Shown here: one piece after another, positions 19,546-19,743 of the stretch | How the letters are laid out: the number at the start of each line of letters is the position of its first letter | How positions within the stretch are numbered: position 1 is the stretch's first letter | From: Candidatus Hydrogenedentota bacterium | Lineage (GTDB): Bacteria > Hydrogenedentota > Hydrogenedentia > Hydrogenedentales > JAEUWI01 | Length of the DNA: 32,450 nt | NCBI GenBank assembly: GCA_030432675.1 | Contig: JAUIMA010000006.1 | Coordinates: forward strand, 1-32,450 | Direction of reading: 5' to 3' | Notes under the pieces: model-generated | What the model saw: only the letters and a program-made list of their open reading frames with translations | What the model was told of the DNA's origin: nothing | Database searches by the model: none | Program-made: the position numbers and the translations under genes

Positions 19546-19743
19546 ATGAAAGACATCAAGGTAAACGAATTGAACGAAGCCACGAAGTCCGATGAAATCG
19601 AAATGACCGACGAGGAGATGGGGCAGGTAAAGGGAGGCATTGGCCTTTTGCTTCCTGCGGTGCAGAAGGTGCGCGAGGCGGCCCGAACCGAAAAGAAAAC
19701 GTCTACGCAGACGAGCACCATTACGTACACCGGTCTGGAGTAG
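19546..19743 (+). CDS. Candidate Gly-Gly leader peptide with pseudopilin-like core
   Basis: [67 protein letters not shown] GGAGG upstream; terminator downstream. Confidence 0.75.
   Translation: [65 protein letters not shown]

Follow-up and report, generated by a model that had tools for sequence, protein, structure and literature searches.

The window analysed here is a 32,450-nucleotide stretch of DNA from a Candidatus Hydrogenedentota bacterium. It contains a 65-aa ORF in which a double-glycine leader is followed by a segment resembling a pseudopilin helix, and the question is what such a peptide is made for. The original prediction proposed an exported or modified peptide that interacts with the pseudopilin system, or a RiPP-like precursor. 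A good Shine-Dalgarno sequence and a terminator had been claimed for the ORF, and both signals are in place (Table 1); the folding energy of the hairpin together with its flanks is -26.9 kcal/mol. On both strands of the window, the only match to the sigma-54-type promoter pattern is the one ahead of this gene. The upstream element is dyad-like by eye and does not match the exact dyad pattern, and we treat it as weak evidence.

The leader matched the leader profile with an E-value of 4.6e-10, the window leader itself being among the 13 rows of that profile. Its likeness to Gly-Gly leaders of the C39 type was upheld, while the proposed NHLP likeness was not, as no nitrile-hydratase-like or Nif11-like leader family was matched. 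The resemblance of the core to a DUF1559 helix held at 15/15 residues against many planctomycete-type DUF1559 proteins. The prepilin signal GFTLIELL is absent before the helix of the window peptide, and the GG leader stands there instead. When the window peptide was searched alone, Pfam and NCBIfam gave only chance-level matches below the library cut-offs, placing it in no curated family; a PF07596 domain match was absent, short partial matches to PF07596 occurring in sister peptides only. Judged by its sequence, the ORF is a real precursor-peptide gene.

Table 1. Positions of the precursor gene and its signals in the window, and of a second small gene type beside the exporter at two other loci
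Feature	Position	Strand	Basis or remark
Precursor gene, 65 aa, Gly-Gly leader	19546..19743	+	ORF read from sequence; relatives in 3 other genomes
Shine-Dalgarno GGAGG	19533..19537	+	sequence
Sigma-54-type (-24/-12) promoter TTGGCATGATAGTCGCT	19426..19442	+	pattern match, 120 bp 5' of start
Upstream element (taag...aattac)	19386..19411	+	~15 bp before promoter; resembles spaced dyad of sister promoters
Leader, 31 aa, ends VKGG; predicted C39 cleavage after GG	19546..19638	+	leader profile
Predicted mature core, 34 aa	19639..19740	+	inferred from GG cleavage
16-aa module like residues ~17-32 of planctomycete-type DUF1559 pseudopilins	19639..19686	+	identity comparison
Terminator-like hairpin	19795..19824	+	fold z -4.85; common to convergent gene 19831-21099 (-)
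Second small GG-like gene type (VIRLDDLDG...VGG...KLLFGE)	L046 12426-12707	-	adjoins exporter; sigma-54-type promoter
Second small GG-like gene type (VIRLDDLDG...VGG...KLLFGE)	L049 8111-8350	-	adjoins exporter; sigma-54-type promoter

A leader family with a C39 exporter and sigma-54-type promoters

Using the leader profile together with neighbouring genes, we found 29 peptides with Gly-Gly leaders, spread over 14 loci of four related genomes. The leader-only profile, run over 68 genomes of the class (identical to the 68 of the phylum set), gave matches in four related genomes plus weak partial matches inside longer ORFs. Clear relatives were found within the bacterium's own family of genomes, including four tandem copies on G004:C27 and a paralogue in the same genome (G000) on contig C278. 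The multiple copies that had been looked for in the genome are present, with one peptide on the window contig C651, three on C278 and two on C29, and relatives conserve both the GG and the core, so that the leader-core arrangement recurs in related genomes. In the leader alignment, M1, I4 and GG are invariant and L9 and V28 nearly so; the leaders end in GG with conserved hydrophobic positions (alignments A1/A2). One sister passed the NCBIfam bacteriocin signal model (16.7 against a cut-off of 15.7). The profile found no match in 392 genomes of a planctomycete phylum or in the ten genomes behind related loci, results that show little as both searches were run without a positive control, and a sister peptide scanned against a viral contig collection gave no match.

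As the original prediction stated correctly, the window itself encodes neither a transporter nor a maturase; a C39 ABC exporter is encoded elsewhere in the genome (G000:C278:4506-7622). It combines two cNMP domains, C39 and ABC in one chain (PF03412, 130 bits), the C39-ABC part aligns with the solved PCAT1 and ComA structures, and the catalytic set Q..DC / NHW / DP (Cys/His/Asp) is intact. In the cluster, a PpiC-like maturation protein (TIGR04500, 59.6 bits, below the cut-off of 180), the exporter and HlyD are followed on the other strand by three GG peptides, a sigma-54 activator and an unannotated 363-aa protein (L046:11118-12206), and G003:C88 has the same gene order. Among the eight exporter-cluster proteins scanned, no modifying enzyme was recognised that would support a RiPP, although the PpiC-type protein and the unannotated one leave room for it. 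Among the 68 phylum genomes, the full-length exporter occurs only in G000, G003 and G004, the well-sequenced genomes that have the peptides, the other matches listed being partial ABC matches of 29-38%. The fourth peptide-bearing genome, G006, is 60% complete, so that absence of the exporter there is uninformative.

The promoter pattern (C/T)TGG(C/T)A(C/T)N7GC(T/A/G), of the -24/-12 sigma-54 form, lies 5' of the first gene at all 14 loci, no more than 140 bp from the start at 13 of them. At G003:C88 it lies 382 bp upstream, ahead of another small GG-like gene that heads the operon, and the gene of this type on G000:C278 also has a sigma-54-type promoter (Table 1). The pattern matched 11 times in 283 kb of strand-bases, seven times before peptide or GG-like genes. 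A loose dyad 15-40 bp upstream of the promoters was present at 8 of the 14 loci against about one expected in shuffles of promoter-aligned regions, which is weak evidence. We infer that the sigma-54 activator beside the exporter probably drives the peptide promoters. Taken together, gene family, regulon-like promoters, exporter and their co-occurrence are established at the level of sequence.

The window peptide and the G004:C27 array share their surrounding STAS, kinase, beta-propeller-like and esterase genes (kinase, STAS and esterase with identities of 59-65%), and the two are therefore probably the same locus, rearranged. Two adjacent beta-propeller-like proteins are encoded at 15689-18098 of the window, with paralogues beside the G004:C27 array, and are possible partners of the peptides.

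The short acidic GG leader, the C39 exporter with intact catalytic residues and the tandem precursors are shared with ComC and the class II bacteriocins, which are likewise C39-exported; here, in contrast, the cores are collages of motifs from other secreted proteins, encoded at many dispersed sigma-54-type loci. HetC of Nostoc has the same architecture of cyclic-nucleotide-binding domain, C39 and ABC, and its substrate is unknown (PMC10986499), whereas here candidate GG-leader substrates are encoded beside the exporter, which has two cNMP matches and HlyD and PpiC-type partners.

Composition and origin of the cores

The cores are built from a few modules, namely the DUF1559 N-terminus, the DUF1559 C-terminus (DGSVR), several Hcp segments and GGVRVA(S/T)GDV, which may be FG-GAP-like. 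LLPAVQ occurs in 10 of the 29 cores against 0.0005 expected in shuffled cores. By motif patterns, at least one module is present in 25 of the 29, with no pattern expected more than 0.0015 times among shuffled cores; these patterns were partly composed after the cores had been seen, and matches to curated libraries therefore serve as the independent evidence. A 35-residue core sequence of G003:C26 matched positions 1-28 of PF07596 with 41 bits (cut-off 23.3), SKHIGGVNVALGDGSVRF of G003:C40 matched the H-X9-DG model TIGR04294 with 34 bits (cut-off 19), and ASGMATGKRQHKPLTITKELDKASPLL of G006:C6 matched the Hcp family PF05638 with 33.3 bits (cut-off 23.5). G004:C25 carries an N-terminal Hcp segment, PAYMKLGDIKGE, and a C-terminal one, PTESLSLNFEEIKF, which, when joined in a self-made query, aligned with two separate parts of the solved Hcp1 structure (1Y12). 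Chimeras also occur, as in G003:C40:28847 (Hcp-N and DUF1559-C) and G006:C54 (DUF1559-N and GGVRVASGDV). AlphaFold models were of low confidence (pLDDT 59 and 53).

Compared with DUF1559/SBP_bac_10 proteins (PF07596, TIGR04294), the cores have the same 14-residue and DGSVR segments, whereas they lack the GFTLIELL prepilin signal and the full domain, the module following a GG leader. Sister cores likewise carry N-terminal, middle and C-terminal segments of Hcp/TssD (PF05638, TIGR03344), but only as fragments of about 10-50 residues, whose order is mixed or which are joined to motifs of DUF1559. Since many sisters carry Hcp motifs in place of pilin motifs, an explanation by pilins only is too narrow.

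The bacterium itself has 45 DUF1559 matches. The best eight of these, which were read, have LLPALARAREAARRASCQNNLKQ-like starts, and DGHVEF-like ends are seen in seven, one reading LLPGLVRAREAARR, so that the host motif, where read, is LLPALARAREAARR...DGHVEF and differs from that of the peptide cores. LLPAVQ is absent from the host's own DUF1559 proteins and occurs in this genome solely in GG peptides, with one chance FFPAVQ match besides. When the DNA of seven family genomes was searched for (L/F)(L/F)PAVQ, GG peptides were the only source of matches, chance reading frames aside. The window module shares 15 identities with the DUF1559 proteins of L030/L032 and 9 with the host's own, and the longest module 28 with planctomycete-type proteins and 18 with the host's; LLPAVQ had served as the selection criterion for the planctomycete set, but the DGSV/DGHV contrast (DGSV in 16 of 23 planctomycete-type proteins and in none of the eight from the host) had not. 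The full-length Hcp proteins of G003 and G004, of the same genus, are also unlike the Hcp modules. An origin of the cores from the host's own pilins was rejected on these differences, and the proposed interaction with the host's own pseudopilin system gained no support, as the host proteins use another motif where read.

Across sister peptides, the LLPAVQxxR module has a pS of 0.52 and a pN of 0.04, compared with 0.69 and 0.38 for the leader. Because synonymous sites have diverged while the amino acids are nearly invariant, the motif sequence has probably been selected. The module may represent old copies under strong constraint or the same residues acquired repeatedly, and in either case the residues would appear to matter. 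A mobile repeat acting at the DNA level was rejected, as codons differ between copies. By these motif comparisons, the core motifs are foreign-type and conserved at the protein level.

Proposed function and its alternatives

From the leader and the exporter, we infer cleavage after GG and export of the core through the C39 exporter. In the account that we tentatively favour, the sigma-54 promoter would turn on the window gene together with its sisters, probably via the exporter-adjacent activator, the C39 domain of the cNMP-C39-ABC exporter would cut after Gly-Gly, and the 34-aa core would leave the cell through the HlyD partner. Outside, the core could act as a molecular mimic of planctomycete-type DUF1559 pseudopilins, with the sisters mimicking Hcp tube proteins, and by binding those polymers it may disturb their assembly or recognition in neighbouring bacteria. 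Binding to foreign polymers is proposed because the core carries the DUF1559 motif and the sisters carry Hcp motifs. The mimic or interference function itself is a guess, and the account as a whole seems to us somewhat more likely wrong than right. For the peptides, we identified neither a route of uptake nor a target nor an immunity gene. Counting against mimicry, G004:C27 and G006:C445 include mature peptides of just 11-14 aa, which seem too short for dominant-negative assembly.

More loosely, the peptides may be a regulon of exported products, composed combinatorially from the most conserved motifs of foreign polymers (DUF1559, Hcp), that jam those machines or are read by them; this is possible, though we consider it doubtful. 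If true, motif words recurring without a GG leader (L009, L010, L013, L202, L203) would point to a general, undescribed strategy of motif mimicry.

It is unlikely, in our judgement, that these are ordinary exported GG small proteins, bacteriocin-like or of the biofilm matrix, that have recruited gene fragments of abundant secreted proteins, mimicry being without a specific target and any amphipathic or strand-forming core sufficing. The core tails are variable and of low complexity, as this would suggest, and ten genomes of the planctomycete phylum have full or partial exporter relatives, near some of which the GG peptides have ordinary, unrelated cores. Small GG-motif protein families, the EbfG proteins, are likewise exported by an outer-membrane bacterium, Synechococcus, and serve cyanobacterial biofilm formation, the abstract on them mentioning no pilin or Hcp motifs (PMC4997328). 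Mere raw material, however, would not be expected to keep exact consensus residues despite the heavy synonymous change, nor to show the same few modules at many loci, the source form of the pilin module not being in the host genome.

Secreted pheromones or signals of the ComC kind, read by a receptor for which the modules are recognised words, are quite improbable. In their favour, the exporter resembles ComA, the leader of one sister scores above the Pfam ComC cut-off, and a role in the export of developmental signals has been proposed for HetC-type exporters (PMC10986499). Each genome nevertheless has many different cores, and beside the peptide genes examined we recognised none for a receptor. 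Peptide signals are generally few, with a sensor encoded alongside.

It is more improbable yet that the peptides serve the host's own pseudopilins and T6SS Hcp tube as accessory subunits, as caps or in regulating assembly. The cores do imitate both families, and one full-length Hcp accompanies the many DUF1559 matches in the host genome; they match the foreign type, however, not the host type (LLPALARAREAARR/DGHVEF for pseudopilins, MANAFFLKIDGITGESEDEAHKGWI for the Hcp of G004), and G005, a genome of the same genus, encodes an Hcp while lacking both the peptides and a full-length exporter. A spurious ORF, or an assembly chimera from a DNA motif common in metagenomes, is very improbable and the chimera was rejected, for although the fragmented genomes are probably MAGs and planctomycete DNA commonly contains the motif, the peptides occur in tandem arrays with different modules and their own promoters and Shine-Dalgarno sequences, in four separate genomes, with the same residues in different codons.

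To our knowledge, the core of a C39-exported peptide normally bears no relation to other protein families. In the present peptides, recognisable pieces of two polymer-forming families, in the form of other bacteria, make up the cores, accompanied by an exporter and a promoter regulon. In the open-access literature, we found no description of such motif-collage GG peptides and no paper linking the DUF1559 family to double-glycine peptides. If mimicry is true, it would amount to a novel mode of interference with pili and secretion tubes. The cores also provide defined short peptides for probing the binding of conserved DUF1559 motifs (the LLLPAVQ helix and the H-X9-DG end).

Related motifs in other secreted proteins

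One protein of 210 aa (L203, G049:C23, 1383-2015 on the minus strand) has a Sec-like signal and lacks a Pfam match. Motifs typical of DUF1559, namely DGSVR (twice), LLPAVQ (twice) and LLPYIEQ (once), stand there in a context that is not DUF1559. Proteins at L009 4731-5321 (Desulfuromonas-labelled) and L010 4318-5010 (Bryobacterales-labelled) contain the Hcp start YMKIGDIKG joined to 2-3 copies of a 13-residue motif and lack a prepilin signal. As these secreted proteins (L203, L009, L010) carry the motifs, use of the motifs is suggested to be wider than the C39 exporter. The 14-residue DUF1559 motif is also inserted in a large GEVED-domain protein (L013 3780-6509, Anaerolineales-labelled) and lies within a large secreted protein of L202 (G039:C63); the group names of L009, L010 and L013 are MAG labels, taken as given along with the binning. 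In L204 (G051:C220), a complete prepilin start is followed by a non-DUF1559 tail. In plasmid searches, the matches were confined to DUF1559 proteins, Hcp proteins and unannotated stretches, and a viral scan with the L010 protein returned DUF1559-type genes only. Among contigs classed as viral (L134-L145), several carry DUF1559 genes with prepilin signals.
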